Shown here: in pieces, positions 931-10,009 of the stretch
How the letters are laid out: each line of letters starts with the position of its first letter
How positions within the stretch are numbered: position 1 is the first letter of the stretch
From: Streptomyces formicae
GTDB lineage: Bacteria; Actinomycetota; Actinomycetes; Streptomycetales; Streptomycetaceae
DNA length: 64,000 nucleotides
Direction: 5' to 3'
NCBI RefSeq assembly: GCF_002556545.1
Contig: NZ_CP022685.1
Coordinates: forward strand, 8,224,001-8,288,000
Notes under the pieces: model-generated
Seen by the model: only the letters and a program-made list of their open reading frames with translations
Told to the model about the DNA's origin: nothing
Databases searched by the model: none
Position numbers and translations under genes: made by a program

Positions 931-2088
931 ATGCGGACGTACACGCGGGATGACGACGTGCGTCGCCTCCTTGTGGCCTCCGAGGGCGGCGACGTTCGCG
1001 CGATGGTGCTGCTGGCTGGGTGGTTGGTCGAGAGCGGGCGGCCCCGTGAGGCCGAGCCGTGGGCGCGCGCGGCTGCTGAGGCGGGTGACTCCGAGGGAAT
1101 GGATCGCTTGGCCCAGATCTGCGTCACCATGGCCCTCGGCGGGACGTTCGCCGTTGATCTGGAGAAGCTGGCGGAGCTTCGCAAGGATCCGGAGTTCGTC
1201 GGGCGGGCCAAGAGATGGTCGGACGAAGGTCGCCGCTGGCGAGTGAACGCGGCAGAGGTCGGTCACGAAGGCGCCATTTCGCTCTTGGCCATCTCGGCGA
1301 CGAGCGACGACGAGCGCGAGCGGTGGCTCCGACACGGCGCCTCCATGGGGCATCGTCGCCTCAGAGCCCGGCTTCTCGAACTCCTGCGGGAACAGCGGCG
1401 TTTCGATGAGGCTGAACCGTGGCAGCGAGCGGAGGCCGAGGACGGGAACGGCCGCGAGCAGCTGAAGCTCGCCCAACACCTCAGTGAGCAGGGGTGCTTC
1501 GATGAGGCGGAGCACTGGTATCGGACTGCTGCCGACGGTGACCGGGATGGGACATCGCTTCATGCAGTGCGGGAGTTCGTACGCTTCCTCACGGGCCGAG
1601 GACGCGACGACGAGGCAGAGCATTGGCGTCGGCGAGCGACGGAGATCGAGCACCATCTGGCGCAGAAGTACGGGGATTTCGAAGGTCTCCCCGCCTTCCG
1701 CGTGGCCGGTGAGGAGGTCGTCCTCACGGCCCTGGTCACCACGGCCGTGCTCCCCTTCATCCAGACGCTGGTCTCCAAGACCGCCGAGGACGCATACGCT
1801 CAGGCGCGCCAGCTGATCCGTCGCCTGCCCCTCATGCGCGGGTCCGACCGCGGCGCCGGTGAACCAGCCGGCTCTTCCGCGGGGACGGGGGCCCTGTTCG
1901 TCGTCGTCGACGACCCGGATGCGGGCGTCACGCTGTACCTGTCGTCAGCCGTGTCGGACGAGGCGTTGCAAGCCCTGTCCTCCTTCGACCTGGCCGAGTT
2001 GACGGCACGCAGGCCCGACGAGGGACGGATTCGTCTCGTCTGGCACCAGGAGAGCGGGACGTGGCGCATTCGTGGTGACACCTCATGA
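931..2088 (+). CDS. Sel1/TPR-repeat protein with hydrophobic C-terminal segment
   Basis: A 385-residue protein from the ATG at 931, chosen over the TTG at 880 because gggaggggcg sits just before it. Residues about 20-230 contain several Sel1/TPR-like helical repeats of the pattern (E/D)AExWxRxAAExG: REAEPWARAAAEAG, DEAEPWQRAEAEDG, DEAEHWYRTAADG and DEAEHWRRRATEI. Such repeats usually mediate protein-protein contacts. A hydrophobic stretch, VVLTALVTTAVLPFIQTLV, follows and could anchor it to a membrane or bury in a domain. The last 80 residues form a separate alpha/beta-looking domain ending in a W-R-I strand. The function is not recognised. Its tail overlaps that of the convergent IclR gene by 6 nt. 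Confidence 0.7.
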   Translation: MRTYTRDDDVRRLLVASEGGDVRAMVLLAGWLVESGRPREAEPWARAAAEAGDSEGMDRLAQICVTMALGGTFAVDLEKLAELRKDPEFVGRAKRWSDEGRRWRVNAAEVGHEGAISLLAISATSDDERERWLRHGASMGHRRLRARLLELLREQRRFDEAEPWQRAEAEDGNGREQLKLAQHLSEQGCFDEAEHWYRTAADGDRDGTSLHAVREFVRFLTGRGRDDEAEHWRRRATEIEHHLAQKYGDFEGLPAFRVAGEEVVLTALVTTAVLPFIQTLVSKTAEDAYAQARQLIRRLPLMRGSDRGAGEPAGSSAGTGALFVVVDDPDAGVTLYLSSAVSDEALQALSSFDLAELTARRPDEGRIRLVWHQESGTWRIRGDTS

Positions 2089-2877
2089 CTCGCTCCGGTC
2101 GCCCGGTGGCAGCAGCAGGACCTCCAGGGCGCGGGCGCAGCCTCGTGCCCTGGAGAGGAACCAGTCGGTTCTGTCGTCCGTGATCAGTTCCGGGGTCGCG
2201 CGCAGGGCGAGGGCGAAGCGGGCGTGGCCGGTGCGGTCGAGCACCGGTACGGCCAGGGTGCGGACGCCGTGGGCCGACTCGCCGTCGTTGCGGGCGTAAC
2301 CGTCGGTGCGGACTCGGGCCAACTCGGCCTCCAACGCGGCCGGTTCGACGATCGTCCGCTCAGTGAACGGGAACAGGGGCGGGAGCGAGGAAGGGCCGCC
2401 CTCGCCCGGGCGCGCCCAGGCGAGCAGGACCTTGCCGAGTGCCGTCGAGTGCAGCGGGCGGCGCAGGCCGACCTTCGGGGTGACCGAGCCGCCCGCCACG
2501 ATCACCGCGTGCGGTCCGCTGCGCAGTGCCAAGTCGGCGGTGACGCCCGTGCGTTCAGCAAGGTCGGTGAGTTCGGGCGCGGCCAGGTGGAGGCCGCGCT
2601 GGTGGTACGAGAGGCGCCCCAGCTCGGTCACGGCCGGACCGAGGCGGTAGCGCGCCGTGCGGAAGTCCTGCTCCAGGAAACCGGCGTCGAGCAGGGTGCG
2701 GGCCAGACGGTGTGCCGTCGAGACCGGGAGCGTCAGGCGGCGGGCCAGGTCGGACGCGCTGAGGTCGGGGCCGTTGTCGTGGAAGCAGTGCAGGAGGTCG
2801 AGGGCGCGGCGTACTGACTGGGCGCCGGTGGGGCGGCGTGGGGTGGGGGCCTCGTTCGCGGGGCTCGCTGGGATCAC
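2083..2877 (-). CDS. IclR family transcriptional regulator
   Basis: A 264-residue protein with an N-terminal winged helix-turn-helix (about residues 19-80; LSASDLARRLTLPVSTAHRLARTLLDAGFL) and a C-terminal IclR ligand-binding domain (about 85-255). The latter includes the conserved HSTALGKVLLAW segment and a GVRTLAVPVLDRTGHARFAL core. The start is GTG, with gggagagga 8 nt upstream. It is divergent from the sulfur operon that begins near 3112. It may control that operon or an unlinked catabolic function; the sequence alone does not settle which. The effector is unknown. Confidence 0.87.
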   Translation of the reverse strand: MIPASPANEAPTPRRPTGAQSVRRALDLLHCFHDNGPDLSASDLARRLTLPVSTAHRLARTLLDAGFLEQDFRTARYRLGPAVTELGRLSYHQRGLHLAAPELTDLAERTGVTADLALRSGPHAVIVAGGSVTPKVGLRRPLHSTALGKVLLAWARPGEGGPSSLPPLFPFTERTIVEPAALEAELARVRTDGYARNDGESAHGVRTLAVPVLDRTGHARFALALRATPELITDDRTDWFLSRARGCARALEVLLLPPGDRSES

Positions 2878-2945
2878 GTGGGGTGTTCCTCTCCCGTTCC
2901 GGTGGGGGCGTCTTCACTCTTCTCCGGCCCGATTCTCCTCGTCGC

Positions 2946-3025
2946 TTCCCACATCGCGGCAGCGGAATCGGCCATGAACCGCCTGGTGAAACACCCTGTT
3001 CACGCTCGTTCCCACATCATGGGAA
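2946..3025. promoter_or_regulatory. Repeated element and palindrome upstream of the sulfur operon
   Basis: The 10-mer ttcccacatc occurs twice, at 2946-2955 and 3009-3018. The second copy is part of a near-palindrome, ttccca-catca-tgggaa (3009-3025). Both lie between the divergent IclR gene and the leader peptide, where the operon promoter must be. They look like a regulator binding site plus an extra half-site. Candidates are the IclR protein or a global sulfur regulator. This is inferred from symmetry. Confidence 0.4.
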
Positions 3026-3111
3026 GCGGCTTGATGAGGGGGCGCCACCCGTGCCAGTCTGCGCTCGTCACCACGGGAAGCGCCCGTAGAACGGGAGAGG
3101 GGAGCAGCGCC

Positions 3112-3240
3112 ATGCACGGTCGTCCTCGTACCGCAGCGCTCGCCACCCACCCGGTTCCTGCTCTCCGCCCGGTTCGCGCCACCTTCACGCTGCGCCGCCA
3201 CATAGACCTGGCCCGCGTCGCCAGCGCCGCCTGTCGCTGA
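3112..3240 (+). CDS. Leader peptide of sulfur operon (cysteine-type attenuator)
   Basis: A 42-residue ORF with a strong ribosome binding site (gggagagggga) before the ATG. Its C-terminal end RRHIDLARVASAACR matches the R-x-H-I/V-D-L-x-R-V-x-S-A-x-C-R tail of short actinobacterial leader peptides found ahead of sulfur assimilation and sulfonate uptake genes. The penultimate codon is cysteine, so ribosome stalling there when cysteine is short could control the genes that start 97 nt downstream. The rest of the peptide is basic and not conserved in any pattern I recognise. This is a regulatory ORF, not a functional protein. Confidence 0.72.
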   Translation: MHGRPRTAALATHPVPALRPVRATFTLRRHIDLARVASAACR

Positions 3241-3271
3241 CCTTTCACCCCGTCAGCCCGTAGTTCCGGTC

Positions 3272-3286
3272 GCCGCGCTCCGCGGC
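3272..3286 (+). terminator. Possible attenuator hairpin after the leader peptide
   Basis: gccgcgctccgcggc can form a 6-bp G/C stem with a 3-nt loop, 31 nt after the leader stop codon and 50 nt before the next start. It could be the attenuator or an anti-anti-terminator. It has no T-run, as is usual in Streptomyces. Support is weak. Confidence 0.3.
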
Positions 3287-3336
3287 TCTCGGCAGCGCCA
3301 CCGCGCGCACCCACCACACCCCTCAGGGAAGAGCCC

Positions 3337-4449
3337 ATGACGCACGCCCTCGTGCCCCCTGTGCCGGAGACACTCTGGTTCACCCGCTGCCCAGTGCCCA
3401 CCGCCACCGGCATAGCGGCCGATCAACGGTGGCTGAGCGCCGAGTTCGCGCGGGACGGCATCGCCGTACGGTCCCTTCAGGATCTCGATCCGGACGCCGC
3501 CGACCCCGCCGTGGACCGCCAGGCCCACTACACGCACGCGCTGCCCGGCCTCTTCCGCGAGGGCGGCAACGTGCCCGCGTTGTGGGCCCGTTCGCGCGGC
3601 GAGCGGACCCGGCTCGTCGGCCTCACCTGGATCGAGGAGCGCCAGGCCGTGCTCGTCGCGCCGGGATCGGGGATCCGCGGTGCCGCCGCGCTGCGCGGCC
3701 TGCGCCTCGCGGTGCCCCGGCACGACGTGGCCATCGACTTCTGGCGGGCCATGGCGCTGCGCGGCTTCGACGGGGCCCTCGCGTCGGCCGGGCTCGATCT
3801 CGGTGACGCGACTCCGGTCGACGTCTCGGCACGGGGGTACGAGGGGCAGTGGGCCGCGGAGCTGGCGGCGCTGCGGCGCGGGGACGTCGACGCCGTGTAC
3901 GTCAAGGGTGCGCTCGCGGTCGAGGCGGCCCGGCGGGCGGGGGCCGAGGTCGCCGTCGAGCTGGACGAACTCCCCGACCGGGCGCACCGCGTGAACAACG
4001 GGACGCCCCGCCCCATCACCGTCCACCAGGACCTGCTCGACGACCATCCGGACCTCGTGGCGCGCTTCCTCTCCGTGCTCCTCCGCGCCGCCGACTGGGC
4101 GGCGGACCATCCCGCCGACGTCGCCCGCATTCTCGGCGCGGAGACGGGCGCGGGCGCGGCGGGCGTCGCGGGCGCCTACCGGCCCGGCACGCATCGCACG
4201 CTCCACCCCGATCTGTCCGAGGATCGCCTGAGCCTCCTTGCCCGGCAGGAGGAAGGGCTGCGCGAGCACGGATTCCTGCCCGAACCCGTCGACGTACGCG
4301 CGTGGACGGACCGCGAGCCGCTGCGGCGGGCCGCCGAACTGGTGCGTGCGGAGCCGGAGTTCACGTCCGCGCCCGCATCACCCCGAACGACCGCCACCGC
4401 CACTGCTACCGCGCCGCCGCACCCGTCGTCCCGTACGGCCTCACACTAA
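3337..4449 (+). CDS. DszB-like sulfinate desulfinase candidate
   Basis: A 370-residue, signal-less protein of the periplasmic-binding-protein fold, easily misread as a sulfonate/nitrate binding protein. Its N-terminus reads FTRCPVPTAT. This matches the catalytic region of DszB (2'-hydroxybiphenyl-2-sulfinate desulfinase, YSNCPVPNAL), and Cys18 aligns with the DszB nucleophile Cys27. His64 and Arg74, in HYTHALPGLFREGGNVPAL, keep the exact 10-residue spacing of DszB His60 and Arg70 and the R-x-G-G-x-(I/V)-P-x-L context. DszB is 365 residues, close to this length. The inferred role is cytoplasmic release of sulfite from an organic sulfinate. The last 25 residues are a Ser/Thr/Ala/Pro tail. It is the first structural gene of the sulfur operon. 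The substrate is unknown. Confidence 0.72.
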   Translation: MTHALVPPVPETLWFTRCPVPTATGIAADQRWLSAEFARDGIAVRSLQDLDPDAADPAVDRQAHYTHALPGLFREGGNVPALWARSRGERTRLVGLTWIEERQAVLVAPGSGIRGAAALRGLRLAVPRHDVAIDFWRAMALRGFDGALASAGLDLGDATPVDVSARGYEGQWAAELAALRRGDVDAVYVKGALAVEAARRAGAEVAVELDELPDRAHRVNNGTPRPITVHQDLLDDHPDLVARFLSVLLRAADWAADHPADVARILGAETGAGAAGVAGAYRPGTHRTLHPDLSEDRLSLLARQEEGLREHGFLPEPVDVRAWTDREPLRRAAELVRAEPEFTSAPASPRTTATATATAPPHPSSRTASH

Positions 4450-4460
4450 GGACCTCCGTC

Positions 4461-5447
4461 ATGCGCATTCCGAAACTCCTGGTGGCCCTCGCGGCCCTCG
4501 CAGCGCTCGCGGGCTGCGGCACCTCGGAGGCCGACTCCGCAGGGGAGGGCGGCGGACAGGTCACCGTCCGCATCCCCGACCCGGGGAACGCCGGTGTCCT
4601 CGCCCTCGGCAAGAAGGACGGCAGCCTCGCCGCGGCCCTGGCGAAGGCCGACGCGAAGGTCGAGTGGACGGGCAGCGCCGGTCCCTTCGCACCGGCCGCG
4701 CAGGCCATGAACGCCGACCAGCTCGACATCGCGACGGGGTCGATCACCTCCGGCATCACCTCTCTCGCGCAGACCCCCGGCTTCAAGTTCTTCACCGCCA
4801 CCGCACCCGACCCGGTCGGCGAGGGCATCCTCGCGAAGAAGGGCTCCGGCATCGACGGGGTGGAGGACCTGGTCGGCAAGAAGGTCGCCGTCAACCAGGG
4901 CGGCACGGGCGAGTACCTGCTCCTGAAGGCGCTCGCCGAGCACGACATCCCGGCGAGCGAGGTGGAGCGGGTGTACCTGCGGCCCGACCAGACCGCCGCG
5001 GTGTTCAACACCGGCAAGGTCGACGCCTGGGCGGTCTGGGCGGCGTACGCCGTGTCCGAACTCGGCACCGGGAAGGCGGAGTTCATCGTCGACGGCAAGG
5101 AGATCGGCTCCGACAACTACAGCCTCACCGCCGTCCGCACGGCCTTCGCCGAGCAGCACCCGAAGGTGGTGAAGGCGCTCTACGACTACCTCCACGAGAA
5201 CAGCGCCAGGGAGAAGAAGGACCCGGCCCGCTACCTCAACGTCACCACGGACGCGGGCCCGCAGGCGCTCAACGGCGAGGCCGAGCGCATCCAGACCGAC
5301 TTCACCGCGCGGGGCGGCACGGTCGAGCCGATCACCTCCGCGGACATCAAGCGCTTCGAGGCGGTGGCCAGGTTCTACGCCGAACAGAAGGTCACGAAGA
5401 AGCCGGTCGACATCGCGTCGCACGTACTTGATGTGGAGCGGCTGTGA
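4461..5447 (+). CDS. Sulfonate-type ABC transporter substrate-binding lipoprotein
   Basis: A 328-residue protein that starts at the ATG at 4461. It has a clear lipoprotein signal with lipobox L-A-G-C (Cys19), so it should be tethered outside the membrane. The mature part has the SsuA/NrtA-type pattern: MNADQLDIATGSITSG, GKKVAVNQGGTGEYLL and DQTAAVFNTGKVDAWAVW. These line the ligand cleft in aliphatic sulfonate, taurine and nitrate binding proteins. Its stop overlaps the GTG of the permease gene. Its job is to capture the organosulfur substrate for the SsuBC-type importer. Which sulfonate it binds cannot be told. Confidence 0.85.
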   Translation: MRIPKLLVALAALAALAGCGTSEADSAGEGGGQVTVRIPDPGNAGVLALGKKDGSLAAALAKADAKVEWTGSAGPFAPAAQAMNADQLDIATGSITSGITSLAQTPGFKFFTATAPDPVGEGILAKKGSGIDGVEDLVGKKVAVNQGGTGEYLLLKALAEHDIPASEVERVYLRPDQTAAVFNTGKVDAWAVWAAYAVSELGTGKAEFIVDGKEIGSDNYSLTAVRTAFAEQHPKVVKALYDYLHENSAREKKDPARYLNVTTDAGPQALNGEAERIQTDFTARGGTVEPITSADIKRFEAVARFYAEQKVTKKPVDIASHVLDVERL

Positions 5448-7054
5448 GGACGGGGCGAGGGGGTGGGGCACCCGTGCCCGCGCCTGCGCGGAGGGACTCG
5501 GCGCCTGCCGCTGCGCCCGGCCCGTCTGCTGAGTCCGCTGCCTCTGCCGTGTCCGGCGAGCCGGGGGCGCCTGAGGCGGTGCGCCTCAAGGATGAGGCAC
5601 CCGCCGGGCCGGTGCCCGTGGTCAGGGATCCGGCGCCGGGGGATGCCGCAGGCGCCGTGCCGCGCGGCTTGTCCGGAGGGCCTGCCCCCTCTGCTGTGTC
5701 GGGCGGGCCGGATGTGGTCGGTGGGTCTGAGGCGGAGGGTCTCAACGGTGGGGCACCCGCCGGGCCCGTGCCCGGCCTGCCCGTAGAGCCTGCCCCCTCC
5801 GCTGTACCCGGCGCGCCGGGCGTGCTCGGTGGGTCTGAGGCCGAGGGCCTCAACGGTGGGTCACCCACCGGGCCCGTGCCCGGCCTGCCCGCAGGGCCTG
5901 CCCCCTCCGATCTGTCCGGCGCGTCTGCGGCGGCCGTGCCCACACCCGAGGTGAAGGATCCGGCGCTTGCGGTGCCTCCTGCGGGTGCCGCAGGCGCCAT
6001 GCCGCCCGGCCTGCCCGCAGGGCCGTCCCCCTCCGCTGCGTCTGGCGCGCCGGACGCGCTCGGTGCGCCTGATGCGGAGCCCCCCACCGAAGCGGCGCCC
6101 GCCGAGCCCGCCGAGCCCGCCGAGCCCGCCGCACCCGTAGCGAAGAGCTCCCCCCACCCAGCACCCGCCCCCGCAGCCCCCACCCCTGCGGCCCCCGCCA
6201 AACCCACTGACGGACACCGAGCCCACCCGACCCCGCCACCCCGCCTCGTCACCCCCCGCCCACCCACATCCCGTCCCCGCCCCCGCGCCTACTCCCTGAC
6301 CGTCCGCGCCCTCGGTCCCTTTCTCCTCGTCGCCCTCTGGTGGGCCGCGTCCGCCACCGGGCTGCTGACGCCGGACGTGCTCGCGTCGCCCGCCGAAGTG
6401 CTGCGTGCCGTGGGGGAGTTGTGGGGGAACGGGCAGTTGTCCGACGCGCTTGCCACCTCGCTCACCCGGTCCGGGCTCGGGCTGCTCATCGGGCTGGCCG
6501 TCGGGCTGACCCTCGGCATCGTCACCGGGTTCACCCGGCTCGGTGACGAGCTGCTCGACTCGTCCATGCAGACGCTGCGCACCATCCCCTTCCTGTCCCT
6601 CGTGCCGCTCTTCATGGTGTGGTTCGGCATCAACGAGACAGCGAAGGTGCTGCTCATCGCGGTCGCCACCACCTTTCCGATGTACGTGTCGACCTCCAGC
6701 GGAGTCCGCGCCACCGACCGCAAACTGGTCGAGGCGATGCGCAGCTTCGGCATGGGCAGGATCGGCATCGTCAGGGAGGTCGTCCTGCCCGGGGCGCTGC
6801 CCTCGCTGCTCGCGGGGCTGCGGCTGTCCATGACGCTCAGCGTGATCGCGCTGATCGCCGCCGAGGAGATCAACGCCACCGCGGGCATCGGCTACTTGAT
6901 GTCGCAGGCGCAGAGTTTCGCGCGGACCGACATCCTCGCCGTCTGCATCCTCGTGTACGGCGTGCTCGGGCTGCTGGCCGACGGCGTCGTACGCCTCCTT
7001 GAGCGGGTGCTGATGCCATGGCGCCGCGCCGGGCAGGGGGTGGTGGCGCGATGA
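5444..7054 (+). CDS. ssuC: Sulfonate ABC transporter permease with long repetitive N-terminus
   Basis: A 536-residue ORF. From about residue 286 it is an ordinary SsuC-type permease of roughly 250 residues with about six membrane helices and the ATPase-contact loop EAMRSFGMGRIGIVREVVLPGA. Residues 1 to about 285 are Pro/Ala/Gly-rich, with 36-residue repeats and no membrane segment. Usual SsuC proteins have only a short start. The GTG start (GTGA overlap with the lipoprotein stop) argues that the extension is translated. However, many codons there end in T or A, unlike neighbouring genes. An in-frame ATG at 5999 would shorten the protein to 351 residues but still leave about 100 low-complexity residues. 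The permease call is firm; the true start is uncertain. Confidence 0.82.
   Translation: MRTGRGGGAPVPAPARRDSAPAAAPGPSAESAASAVSGEPGAPEAVRLKDEAPAGPVPVVRDPAPGDAAGAVPRGLSGGPAPSAVSGGPDVVGGSEAEGLNGGAPAGPVPGLPVEPAPSAVPGAPGVLGGSEAEGLNGGSPTGPVPGLPAGPAPSDLSGASAAAVPTPEVKDPALAVPPAGAAGAMPPGLPAGPSPSAASGAPDALGAPDAEPPTEAAPAEPAEPAEPAAPVAKSSPHPAPAPAAPTPAAPAKPTDGHRAHPTPPPRLVTPRPPTSRPRPRAYSLTVRALGPFLLVALWWAASATGLLTPDVLASPAEVLRAVGELWGNGQLSDALATSLTRSGLGLLIGLAVGLTLGIVTGFTRLGDELLDSSMQTLRTIPFLSLVPLFMVWFGINETAKVLLIAVATTFPMYVSTSSGVRATDRKLVEAMRSFGMGRIGIVREVVLPGALPSLLAGLRLSMTLSVIALIAAEEINATAGIGYLMSQAQSFARTDILAVCILVYGVLGLLADGVVRLLERVLMPWRRAGQGVVAR
5666..6064 (+). repeat. 108-bp tandem repeats inside the permease gene
   Basis: Two full 108-nt units (5666-5773 and 5774-5881) are followed by a partial third (5882-5926) and a diverged partial copy from 6008. 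The encoded 36-residue unit runs GL-x-x-GPAPSAV-x-G-x-P, then GGSEAEG, LNGG and GPVP. The units keep the reading frame, so length changes would not disrupt the permease. Confidence 0.85.
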
Positions 7055-7764
7055 GCACCGCCGTTCACGTCGCCGGGCTGCGCCGCGTCTTCGGGGAGCG
7101 CGCCGTGCTCGACGGGCTCGATCTCACCATCGCGCAGGGTGAGTTCGTGGCCCTGCTGGGGGCGAGCGGCAGCGGCAAGACCACGCTGCTCCGCATCCTC
7201 GGCGCCCTCGACCGCGCCGACGGCGGTGACGTCCTCGTACCCGAGTCGCGCACCGTCGTCTTCCAGGAGCCGCGCCTCGTACCGTCCAAGCGGGTCCTCG
7301 CGAACGTGACCGTCGCCCTGCCCCGCGGCCGCACCGAACAGGGCCGTACCGCGCTCGCCGAGGTCGGTCTCGAACGGCACGCCGACGCCTGGCCCGCCAC
7401 CCTCTCCGGCGGCGAGGCGCAGCGCGTCGCCCTCGCGAGGGCCCTGGTGCGCGAGCCCGAACTGCTGCTCCTGGACGAGCCGTTCGCCGCGCTCGACGCG
7501 CTCACCCGGCTGCGGATGCAGGACCTGGTCGGCGAGCTGTGCCGGGTCCACCGGCCCGCCGTGCTGCTCGTCACCCACGACGTGGAGGAGGCCGTACGCC
7601 TCGCCGACCGCGTCTGCGTGCTCCGCGAAGGACGGCTGATCACCGACGAGCCCGTCGCCGCCGAGCGTCCGCGCGACCCCGGTGACCCCGCCTTCGCGGC
7701 CCTGCGCCGACGACTCCTGAACGACCTCGGAGTCCACACCCCCGACCCCACTGGAGTGAGCTGA
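7051..7764 (+). CDS. ssuB: Sulfonate ABC transporter ATP-binding protein
   Basis: A 237-residue ATPase. The ATG at 7051 overlaps the permease stop (ATGA) and was preferred to the upstream ATG at 7018. All nucleotide-binding motifs are present: Walker A GASGSGKTT, Q-loop VFQEPRLVP, signature LSGGEAQRVALARAL, Walker B LLLLDEPFAALD and H-loop VTHDVEEA. It has the short single-domain form typical of SsuB/TauB. It powers import through the SsuC-type permease on the inner face of the membrane. The next gene begins directly after its stop. Confidence 0.92.
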   Translation: MSTAVHVAGLRRVFGERAVLDGLDLTIAQGEFVALLGASGSGKTTLLRILGALDRADGGDVLVPESRTVVFQEPRLVPSKRVLANVTVALPRGRTEQGRTALAEVGLERHADAWPATLSGGEAQRVALARALVREPELLLLDEPFAALDALTRLRMQDLVGELCRVHRPAVLLVTHDVEEAVRLADRVCVLREGRLITDEPVAAERPRDPGDPAFAALRRRLLNDLGVHTPDPTGVS

Positions 7765-8631
7765 ATGACCATCACCATCGGTGTCCACAACAGCAATCCG
7801 ACCCTCTACTACCTCTCCCGGCTCGACTACGCCCAGGAGGAACTGGCCGCCGTCGGCGAGACCGTCGCCTTCCATACGTACGTCAACGGCGTACGCACCG
7901 GACAGCTCCTCACCGAAGGCGTCATCGACTTCGGCGGCACGGGGTCCACGCCCCCGGTGACCGCCCAGGCCGCGGGACACGACATCGTGTACACCGCCGT
8001 CTCCGCGCCCCGCCCCGACCACGGCGCGCTCCTGGTCACCGAGGACAGCCCGGTCCGCACCGTCGCGGACCTGAAGGGCGGCACCGTCCACCTGGCCATC
8101 GGCTCCTGGCAGACCCATCTGATCGCCAAGGCCCTGGACGACGCCGGCCTCTCGTACGCCACCGACATCACCCCCGTACGCGGTGGCGAGGACAGCGAGA
8201 GCCTGCTGCGCGCGGGCGGGATCACCGCCTGGGTCGCCCAGGGGGCCCAGCTCGTCGCGGCCCTGCGCGCCGGGGGAGTGCGCGTGGTGATCCGCACCGG
8301 GGACGTCATCACCGACCGGTCCGTCTTCTTCACCCGTCGCGAACTGGCCGAGGAGCGGCCCGAGATCGTGGCCGCGCTCACCCGGGCGCTCCAGCGCGCC
8401 GACGACTGGGCGGCCACCCACCCGCGCGAGGCCGCCGAGATCGCCGCCGCCCACCAGGGCGGTACCGTCGACGACTGGGAGAGCGCGCTGCGCGCCCTGC
8501 CCTGGCGCATCGAGGAGGTCGGCGACGCCTTCGTCGCCGAACAGCAGCGGGCCGCCGACATCTTCGTGCGCACCGGATTCATCGACCGCCCGGTGACCGT
8601 CGCCCACGCCCTGCCCCGGAAGGCGGCATAG
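7765..8631 (+). CDS. SsuA-like binding-protein-fold protein without signal peptide
   Basis: A 288-residue protein that begins directly at the mature fold (MTITIGVHNSNPTLYYLSRL), with neither lipobox nor signal peptide, and starts immediately after the ATPase stop. The core GVIDFGGTGSTPPVTAQAAGHDIVYTA, then VADLKGGTVHLAIGSWQTHLIAKAL, is that of SsuA-type sulfonate binding proteins. I find no cysteine, so it lacks the DszB-type nucleophile of the operon's first gene. It is therefore probably cytoplasmic: a substrate-handling, sensing or non-Cys catalytic relative. Export by another route is possible. Its exact role is unknown. Confidence 0.75.
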   Translation: MTITIGVHNSNPTLYYLSRLDYAQEELAAVGETVAFHTYVNGVRTGQLLTEGVIDFGGTGSTPPVTAQAAGHDIVYTAVSAPRPDHGALLVTEDSPVRTVADLKGGTVHLAIGSWQTHLIAKALDDAGLSYATDITPVRGGEDSESLLRAGGITAWVAQGAQLVAALRAGGVRVVIRTGDVITDRSVFFTRRELAEERPEIVAALTRALQRADDWAATHPREAAEIAAAHQGGTVDDWESALRALPWRIEEVGDAFVAEQQRAADIFVRTGFIDRPVTVAHALPRKAA

Positions 8632-8634
8632 CGC

Positions 8635-9702
8635 ATGGCGTCATCGGAAGTGCTCTGGTACATCATCCCGCGCGAAGGCGCCTACCCCTGGGAGCCCGAG
8701 GGGCGCAGGCCCGTCGACCTCGGCTACCTCCGGCGGCTCGCGGGCACCGTGGAGAGCCTCGGCTTCTCCGGTGCCCTGCTCGCCACCGACCTGTACGACG
8801 TGTGGCCGCTCGGCAGCGCCCTCGCCGCCTCGACGTCGACCGCGTTCAAGCCGCTCCTGGCCGTCCACCCGGGCCTGATCTCGCCGACCCTGCTCGCCAA
8901 GATGGCGCTCAGCTTCGACACCCTCTTCGGCGGGCGGCTCCGCTTCAACGTCGTCAACGGCTCCACCAAGTCCCTTCAGGAGTACGGACTTCACGTGGAG
9001 CACGACGAACGCTACGAGCTGAGCGCCGAGTACTGGTCGATCGTCAAGCGTCTGACGGCCGGTGAGATCTTCGACCACCAGGGCCGTTTCTACGATCTGA
9101 AGGACGCGGGCGCCTCCTTCCGCGAGCTGCGCCCCGTCCAGGAGCCGCACGTGCCCCTCTGGTTCGGCGGGTCGTCGGCCCCGGGCATCGAGATGGCGGC
9201 GGAGCACGTCGACGTCTATCTGACCTGGGGCGAGCCCCCGCACCTGCTCAAGGAGAAGCTGGACCGGGTCCGCGAGCGGGCCGCCGCGCACGGGCGGACG
9301 CTGCGGATCGGGCTGCGCCTGCACCTGATCGTGCGGGACACGGAGGAGGCGGCGTGGGCCGCCGCCGACCGGCTCCTCGACGTCACAAGACAGGCGACGT
9401 ACGCCCGTCAGCTCGGCGAGCGCGCGGGCGAGGACGGGGTGGGCTGGCAGCGGCAGTTCCGCGAGCACGGCGGGAAGGCCCCCGCGCGCGCCAGGGAGTT
9501 GGAGACCCACCCCAACCTGTGGCCCGGCATGAGCCTGTTCCGGCCGGGTCCCGGCACGGCCGTCGTCGGATCCGCCGCCCAGGTCGTGGAGCGCCTGAAG
9601 GAGTACGAGGCGCTGGGGGTCGACACGTTCATCCTCTCCGGCAACCCGCTCCTGGAGGAGGCGTACCGGGTCGCCGAGACCGTGCTTCCCGCGCTGCGCT
9701 AG
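8635..9702 (+). CDS. SsuD-like FMNH2-dependent sulfonate monooxygenase (LLM class)
   Basis: A 355-residue luciferase-like monooxygenase close to SsuD over its whole length: RPVDLGYLRRLA, GGRLRFNVVNGS, HDERYELSAEYW, FGGSSAPG and VYLTWGEPPHLLKEKL. Also shared are GLRLHLI, which holds the Arg/His substrate residues, and PNLWPGMSLFRPGPGTAVVG. SsuD uses reduced FMN and O2 to split a C-SO3 bond, giving an aldehyde and sulfite. The residues corresponding to E. coli His11 and Cys54 look different here (IIPREGAYPW; ATDLYDVW), so the substrate range may differ. No flavin reductase is adjacent. Its TAG stop lies at the left tip of the palindromic element. Confidence 0.83.
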   Translation: MASSEVLWYIIPREGAYPWEPEGRRPVDLGYLRRLAGTVESLGFSGALLATDLYDVWPLGSALAASTSTAFKPLLAVHPGLISPTLLAKMALSFDTLFGGRLRFNVVNGSTKSLQEYGLHVEHDERYELSAEYWSIVKRLTAGEIFDHQGRFYDLKDAGASFRELRPVQEPHVPLWFGGSSAPGIEMAAEHVDVYLTWGEPPHLLKEKLDRVRERAAAHGRTLRIGLRLHLIVRDTEEAAWAAADRLLDVTRQATYARQLGERAGEDGVGWQRQFREHGGKAPARARELETHPNLWPGMSLFRPGPGTAVVGSAAQVVERLKEYEALGVDTFILSGNPLLEEAYRVAETVLPALR

Positions 9703-9876
9703 GGCCTGTCGTCACACTCCCGTCGTCGCCCGAAGGGCGGCCCCGCGGTGTCTGGTGCGTGCGATCGCAAGGCGCCGGGATGTCCTCGTAGTGGGCCTAC
9801 TCGGGCATTCCGGCAACGCCGCGAGCGTGCGTGCCAGACGTCGCGGGGCAGACGGGAGTTTGACGACAGGGCCTAG
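9699..9876. mobile_element. 178-bp palindromic MITE-like element
   Basis: Terminal inverted repeats of 26 nt at 9699-9724 and 9851-9876 match at 24 positions; each outer tip begins ctag. Inner segments also pair (cccgcg..gtctgg..cg with its complement) and the centre is near gtgggcctac (9791-9800), so the whole element can fold into one long hairpin. It carries no ORF of note. It looks like a non-autonomous Streptomyces repeat and may also act as terminator for the sulfur operon. The rest of the 307-bp gap to the LacI gene holds only the likely lacI promoter region. Confidence 0.65.
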
Positions 9877-10009
9877 GGCGTTGGGGGCAGACCTCGGGGC
9901 CGTGGTGGCGCCCTCGCGGGGCAGGCCCCGGGGTCGATGCGGGAAGATGATGCCCGACGGCGGCCGCCGAGGGCGTCGTCCCGCGTCCGCCCGGAAGGAG
10001 AGACCACAG

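Follow-up and report, generated by a model that had tools for sequence, protein, structure and literature searches.

Within a 64,000-nucleotide stretch of Streptomyces formicae DNA (contig NZ_CP022685.1, positions 8,224,001 to 8,288,000 of the forward strand; hereafter, the window), the gene at 3337-4449 is best read as encoding a cytoplasmic sulfinate desulfinase that belongs to the DszB superfamily, works without a cofactor and is built upon a periplasmic-binding-protein fold. The probability of this reading, the chemistry of which we infer, is placed at roughly 0.8. The protein is nearer to DszB than to the binding protein SsuA by sequence, by profile and by predicted fold.

3337-4449, forward strand: candidate DszB-like sulfinate desulfinase, 370 amino acids (open reading frame from ATG; homology, profile, fold and tree)

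Relationship to DszB and conservation of the active site

Comparison of the protein with the chain sequences of the Protein Data Bank (PDB) using phmmer returned only two matches with E below 0.2, both of them DszB sequences (4e-16 and 8e-15), and a 26-row family profile aligns across residues 17-363 of DszB (E 7e-37). VIA-align comparison of the predicted fold points to DszB, and SsuA has the same fold. In a tree that included 19 of 88 SsuA-like frames, the family forms a clade of its own (support 100/100) and is joined to DszB by a 100/99 branch, separate from the SsuA-like rows of the same operons; the branches that join them are long, warnings were issued by the program on one row (P0206) and on letter composition, and the family may lie either beside or inside the DszB rows. 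The family profile also matches the second SsuA-like protein of the operon (E 1e-11), a comparison of a single sequence with a profile that is not like-for-like with the hhalign comparison made with DszB.

The candidate catalytic residues are C18, H64 and R74, accompanied by T16, G76 and G77. C18 lies within FTRCPVPTAT, and H64 and R74 lie within HYTHALPGLFREGGNVPAL; the DszB-like active site put forward in a preliminary description of this DNA is supported, its residues being conserved with the DszB rows. The exact DszB spacing claimed in the same description holds for the histidine and arginine, which stand 10 residues apart in both proteins, but not for the cysteine and histidine, which are separated by 46 residues here versus 33 in DszB. 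Likeness to DszB (PDB 2de2 and 2de3) encompasses the predicted fold, the full-length alignment and the Cys/His/Arg/Gly-Gly site, and includes a hydroxyl two residues ahead of the cysteine (Thr16 here, Ser25 in DszB) as well as a single cysteine, DszB having been described as thrifty, with one cysteine and zero methionine (PMC8557817). Chance occurrence of the motif was considered and rejected, as profile, fold and tree concur. At the N-terminus, MTHALVPPVPETLWF, a signal peptide was not seen on inspection by eye, in agreement with the signal-less protein described earlier. The first predicted strand covers residues 12-17, and the C-terminal tail is of low complexity from about residue 341 (predicted local distance difference test block means of 70, 54 and 40).

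Conservation was assessed in chosen rows, more sequences having existed: alignment A1 comprises 26 family rows, A3 comprises 50 rows (40 family and 10 DszB), and A2 covers the DszB clade. In A1, T16, R17, C18, R74, G76 and G77 occur in 26/26 rows and H64 in 25/26, while in A3 T16, C18, H64, R74, G76 and G77 occur in 40/40 family rows, with S/C/H/R/G/G in 10/10 DszB rows. A cysteine set in [ST]xCPxP after the first strand is likewise found in 26/26 rows of A1 and in 40/40 family and 10/10 DszB rows of A3. Open, overlong or stop-containing frames were left out of the alignments (L002, L003, L007, L011, L013, L031, L035, L040 and the frame at 5258 of L034), and the 40/40 counts do not cover P0211, P0204 or the atypical relatives in L049 and L073, since the former pair was left out of A3 and the latter are in no alignment. 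The cysteine, histidine and RxGG motif is present in 120/120 among the matches listed, the window protein (P0001) included, and in all 120 matches of a second listing (115 by a first pattern, and five more with leucine after the histidine). Loss of the cysteine in close homologues, named in the preliminary description as evidence that would speak against its proposal, was not encountered: the residue is kept in the 120 matches listed and in 45/45 matches within loci, where one of the six search patterns itself contained the cysteine.

These patterns also bear upon the suggestion that the protein is no enzyme, but a cytoplasmic binding protein that serves the SsuD-like monooxygenase or the importer of its operon by carrying or sensing an organosulfur ligand. 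The fold common to SsuA and the presence alongside of a second signal-less SsuA-like protein are consistent with such a role, but the conserved cysteine is the sole cysteine in 117/120 and 118/120 of the two sets of matches listed, and together with the conserved histidine and RxGG it fits catalysis better; the suggestion is considered improbable. A plain SsuA binding protein was rejected. SsuA is exported, whereas neither a signal peptide nor a lipobox was seen here on inspection, the tree sets the protein apart by the 100/99 branch, and the score with NCBIfam SsuA_fam (67.1 bits) lies far under the cut-off of 163.5, a value that neither SsuA-like protein of the operon reaches (135.9 and 148.6 bits). 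The Pfam assignment is NMT1.

Operon, distribution and leader peptide

As the preliminary description had stated, a sulfonate-type importer and an SsuD-like monooxygenase are encoded in one operon with the candidate desulfinase. The other features of the locus are as follows.

2083-2877, reverse strand: IclR-family regulator, divergent
3112-3240, forward strand: leader peptide of 42 amino acids ending RRHIDLARVASAACR, attenuator candidate (NCBIfam NF042934, cis_reg_atten)
4461-5447, forward strand: SsuA-type binding lipoprotein (signal and lipobox-like cysteine by eye)
5444-7054, forward strand: SsuC-type permease (hydrophobic part starting near 6290 as judged by eye; Pfam domain starting near 6503)
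7018-7764, forward strand: SsuB-type ATPase (family matches)
7765-8631, forward strand: second SsuA-like protein, signal peptide not seen, no cysteine
8635-9702, forward strand: SsuD-like monooxygenase dependent on reduced flavin mononucleotide (FMNH2; closest PDB entry alkanesulfonate monooxygenase 1nqk, E 2e-86)

The SsuA gene starts 11 bases past the desulfinase-like stop, the second SsuA-like gene starts at the base after the ATPase stop, and the SsuD-like gene follows three bases on. The SsuD-like protein, which like the second SsuA-like protein contains zero cysteines, scores 343 bits, under the NCBI equivalog cut-off of 518. Signal-less second SsuA-like frames are found in 41/43 rows (start nearest that of the query; L003 and L040 broken; some loci duplicated). 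The true start of the permease is uncertain, because its frame opens with about 270 codons of Pro/Ala/Gly-rich sequence that represent a long extension in the cytoplasm or, alternatively, reflect a misassigned start; tandem repeats lie within the frame at 5665-6196 on the forward strand (108-base unit, 2.4 copies, 85% matches), and in relatives the SsuA match and the permease match mostly lie less than 300 bases apart.

At least 1,902 proteins match at E 1e-8 (8000 candidates scored). Within the genus, 24/199 genomes match at 1e-20, this genome included, and within the class 13/394 match at 1e-30, counts for which the best 10 or 5 candidates were scored per genome and which may be slight undercounts. 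Relatives extend to Paenibacillus, Acetobacter and Peristeroidobacter, and occur on 82 plasmid records, 65 of them from Sinorhizobium or Rhizobium. A divergent IclR-like gene lies no more than 1.5 kb away in 34/41 loci; the order desulfinase, SsuA, permease, ATPase is kept in 30/37 loci having more than 6 kb downstream, and all 30 continue with a second binding protein (SBP2) and an SsuD-like gene, in the window order in 19 and reversed in 11. The same operon occurs on a Streptomyces plasmid, where the annotation of the desulfinase-like gene reads 'ABC transporter substrate-binding protein', the name also borne by most of those listed matches for which a name is given. The contention that such proteins are hidden under that label therefore describes the usual case, but not the records named 2'-hydroxybiphenyl-2-sulfinate (HBPS) desulfinase in some source, which comprise 16/120 matches of the second listing and P0103 of the first.

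A Sinorhizobium meliloti plasmid (L051, 3693-12649) carries two relatives with genes annotated as acyl-CoA dehydrogenase, sulfite oxidase and a monooxygenase of DmoA type. Three desulfinase-like stretches each, within about 7-11 kb, are found in Peristeroidobacter (L034, 5258-16625, one with stops in the frame read), Sphingobium (L047, 8959-15802) and Burkholderia (L049, 5227-12115).

The leader at 3112-3240 scores 31.7 bits with NF042934, above the cut-off of 27, and it differs from the Cys-rich Ms4527A leader (NF042936) in reaching 26 of the 45 bits of that cut-off and in having one cysteine, which is penultimate. A profile built from 13 leaders, the window copy included, found in this genome the window copy and nine more at E 0.12 or below (L076-L084), three weaker matches (E 0.9-3.8) being left out; all nine end no more than four residues past the conserved cysteine, and the NF042934 model was tried on two of them. 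The first genes behind the nine, picked by frame length and guanine-cytosine pattern and classed by Pfam, encode a sulfatase, a nitrite/sulfite reductase, an ABC permease, a luciferase-like monooxygenase, a ThiS-like protein and a flavin reductase, together with, behind the weakest leader matches (E 0.016-0.12), a rhodanese, an amino-acid-type binding protein and an SDF symporter. By eye, cysH- and cysD-like frames follow the nitrite/sulfite reductase, and the ABC permease is followed by frames of a sulfonate system (ATPase, binding protein and monooxygenase). These leaders likely outline a sulfur regulon of the strain. Given the NF042934 match and the like leaders before sulfur genes in the genome, this kind of leader is already known; its position here connects the desulfinase with the supply of sulfur in Streptomyces. 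The leader is present in 14 of 15 loci with at least 77% identity (the exception, L040, being a partial match), and also in L021 and L031. Rfam gave zero matches at gathering score across 2000-10000, a scan of 2870-3400 found no sigma-70 promoter or terminator, and the RNA fold of 3190-3340 is no better than shuffles (z -0.11).

Substrate pocket, alternatives and earlier clusters

Several observations weigh against a desulfinase. Firstly, identity to the DszB rows used is 24-31%, and no clade member with demonstrated activity was found. Secondly, exceptions to the active site exist: serine stands in place of the catalytic cysteine in one Burkholderia paralogue (L049, 5227-6303), distant relatives lack the histidine and arginine (L073) or the cysteine (P0211), and the histidine is missing in one Sphingobium paralogue (L047, 8959-10011), the sole such exception placed in an alignment. 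Thirdly, one written motif finds the leader upstream in 16/40 loci only, and not in L012, L015, L016 or the remaining loci, so that other relatives may be controlled otherwise. Moreover, SsuD-type enzymes free sulfite from sulfonates unaided, and the operon need not, therefore, involve a sulfinate. Finally, Thi5, MqnD and 4,5-dihydroxyphthalate decarboxylase perform other reactions on the same fold; the appearance of the latter two in the fold list favors the same proton-transfer chemistry acting on a different leaving group, as in a decarboxylase, which is nonetheless judged highly improbable.

A further difficulty is presented by the pocket. By hhalign, DszB residues L152, W155 and F203 are without counterpart in the window protein; in A3 the same is true of L152, W155, L202 and F203, with a gap at L152, W155 and F203 in 40/40 family rows, and these last three are invariant in A2. 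The positions of DszB W/F225 and S253 are occupied in 39/40 family rows by Lys190 and Arg225, respectively. Arg17, His67 and Asn220 (40/40 each) and Arg218 (39/40) are specific to the family, and K190, R218, N220 and R225 occur in 26/26 rows of A1; the window protein itself carries R17, H67, K190, R218, N220 and R225, where DszB has N26 as well as W/F225 and S253. Longer inserts near the position of the DszB lid are seen in L048, L050, L051 and some other distant relatives. That W155, F203 and W225 line the DszB pocket is suggested by their conservation and by a mobile stretch at 187-204 (PMC6100217), the pocket residues not being found in the excerpt of PMC12168087. With the hydrophobic residues of DszB lacking counterparts and Lys190, Arg225 and the other family-specific residues present instead, the family pocket looks polar and cationic, and the presence of Lys190 and Arg225 hints that the substrate is smaller and bears a second negative group.

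This comparison bears upon whether the protein does the same job as DszB or BdsA, its substrates being thiophene-derived sulfinates of aryl or alkenyl type (HBPS and hydroxyphenylethene sulfinate) that originate in benzothiophenes of the environment. In Gordonia terrae C-6, the desulfinase gene bdsA, with bdsB and bdsC, adjoins GTC6_01610 (ATP-binding), 01615 and the binding protein 01585, and an E. coli extract with bdsABC converts benzothiophene to o-hydroxystyrene (PMC3868597). That cluster likewise sets a desulfinase beside an alkanesulfonate monooxygenase and sulfonate-transport-type genes and is upregulated on a poor sulfur source, and loci L066-L070 resemble it in gene content and order; it differs from the window operon in its extra FMNH2-dependent monooxygenase, bdsB (PMC3868597). 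Against this alternative stand the absence by alignment of the DszB-clade invariants W155 and F203, the replacement of W/F225 and S253 by lysine and arginine, and the absence of a DszC-like oxygenase among the window operon genes, which comprise SsuABC and SsuD-like genes and not dszA and dszC. In addition, BdsA is likened to the clade of the window protein by gene order and annotation, not by sequence, which tells against the desulfinase reading as well; looked for by name, BdsA is not among the 120 matches of the second listing. A shared job is considered unlikely, and HBPS itself was rejected as substrate, the DszB-clade residues not being retained.

A second cluster of like make-up is chromosomal peg4799-4806 of Rhodococcus IGTS8, comprising SsuA, SsuB, 'Dibenzothiophene desulfurization enzyme B', SsuD and a second SsuA, all of whose proteins are up in dibenzothiophene culture (PMC8557817). 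Its clustering is read from consecutive numbers, its gene order by that numbering is unlike that of the window operon, it is likened by annotation, and the paper names no substrate for it. This kind of cluster is already published (PMC3868597, PMC8557817), and the earlier suggestion of a new kind of route was thus not sustained. Titles and abstract openings of the papers listed on desulfinase or DszB with Streptomyces told of no such operon in that genus.

Proposed route and significance

For DszB, the proton of Cys27 has been assigned the part of electrophile, with roles for His60 and Arg70, and in the substrate-free enzyme His60 lies 17 A from Cys27 (PMC6100217). Sulfur starvation would turn the window operon on, probably by way of the leader peptide and of the divergently encoded IclR regulator, and the SsuABC-type importer would take in an organosulfur anion. 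A sulfinate might then be taken up as such or be supplied by a flavin monooxygenase, which is SsuD-like in this operon and has other oxygenases in its place in relatives. Within the putative desulfinase, Arg74 and Gly77 would hold the sulfinate, His64 would close over it, and Cys18 would donate a proton to the sulfur-bearing carbon, as computed for DszB, freeing sulfur dioxide or sulfite for assimilation.

Tentatively, and with the odds somewhat against it, the relatives may constitute a large, mostly misnamed desulfinase family for a natural sulfinate with a second negative group met by Lys190 and Arg225. Together with oxygenases of varying kind and an SsuA-like partner dedicated to it in the cytoplasm, the family would then form a general soil sulfur route distinct from oil desulfurization, and the 4S enzyme DszB would be a specialised relation of it, marked by a hydrophobic lid. 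If these proteins do act as desulfinases, databases misread a layer of the release by which soil bacteria free sulfur from organic matter. On the same condition, DszB acquires numerous relatives with which it can be compared and engineered, and, pocket residues having been named, it becomes possible to test which natural substrate shaped the family.
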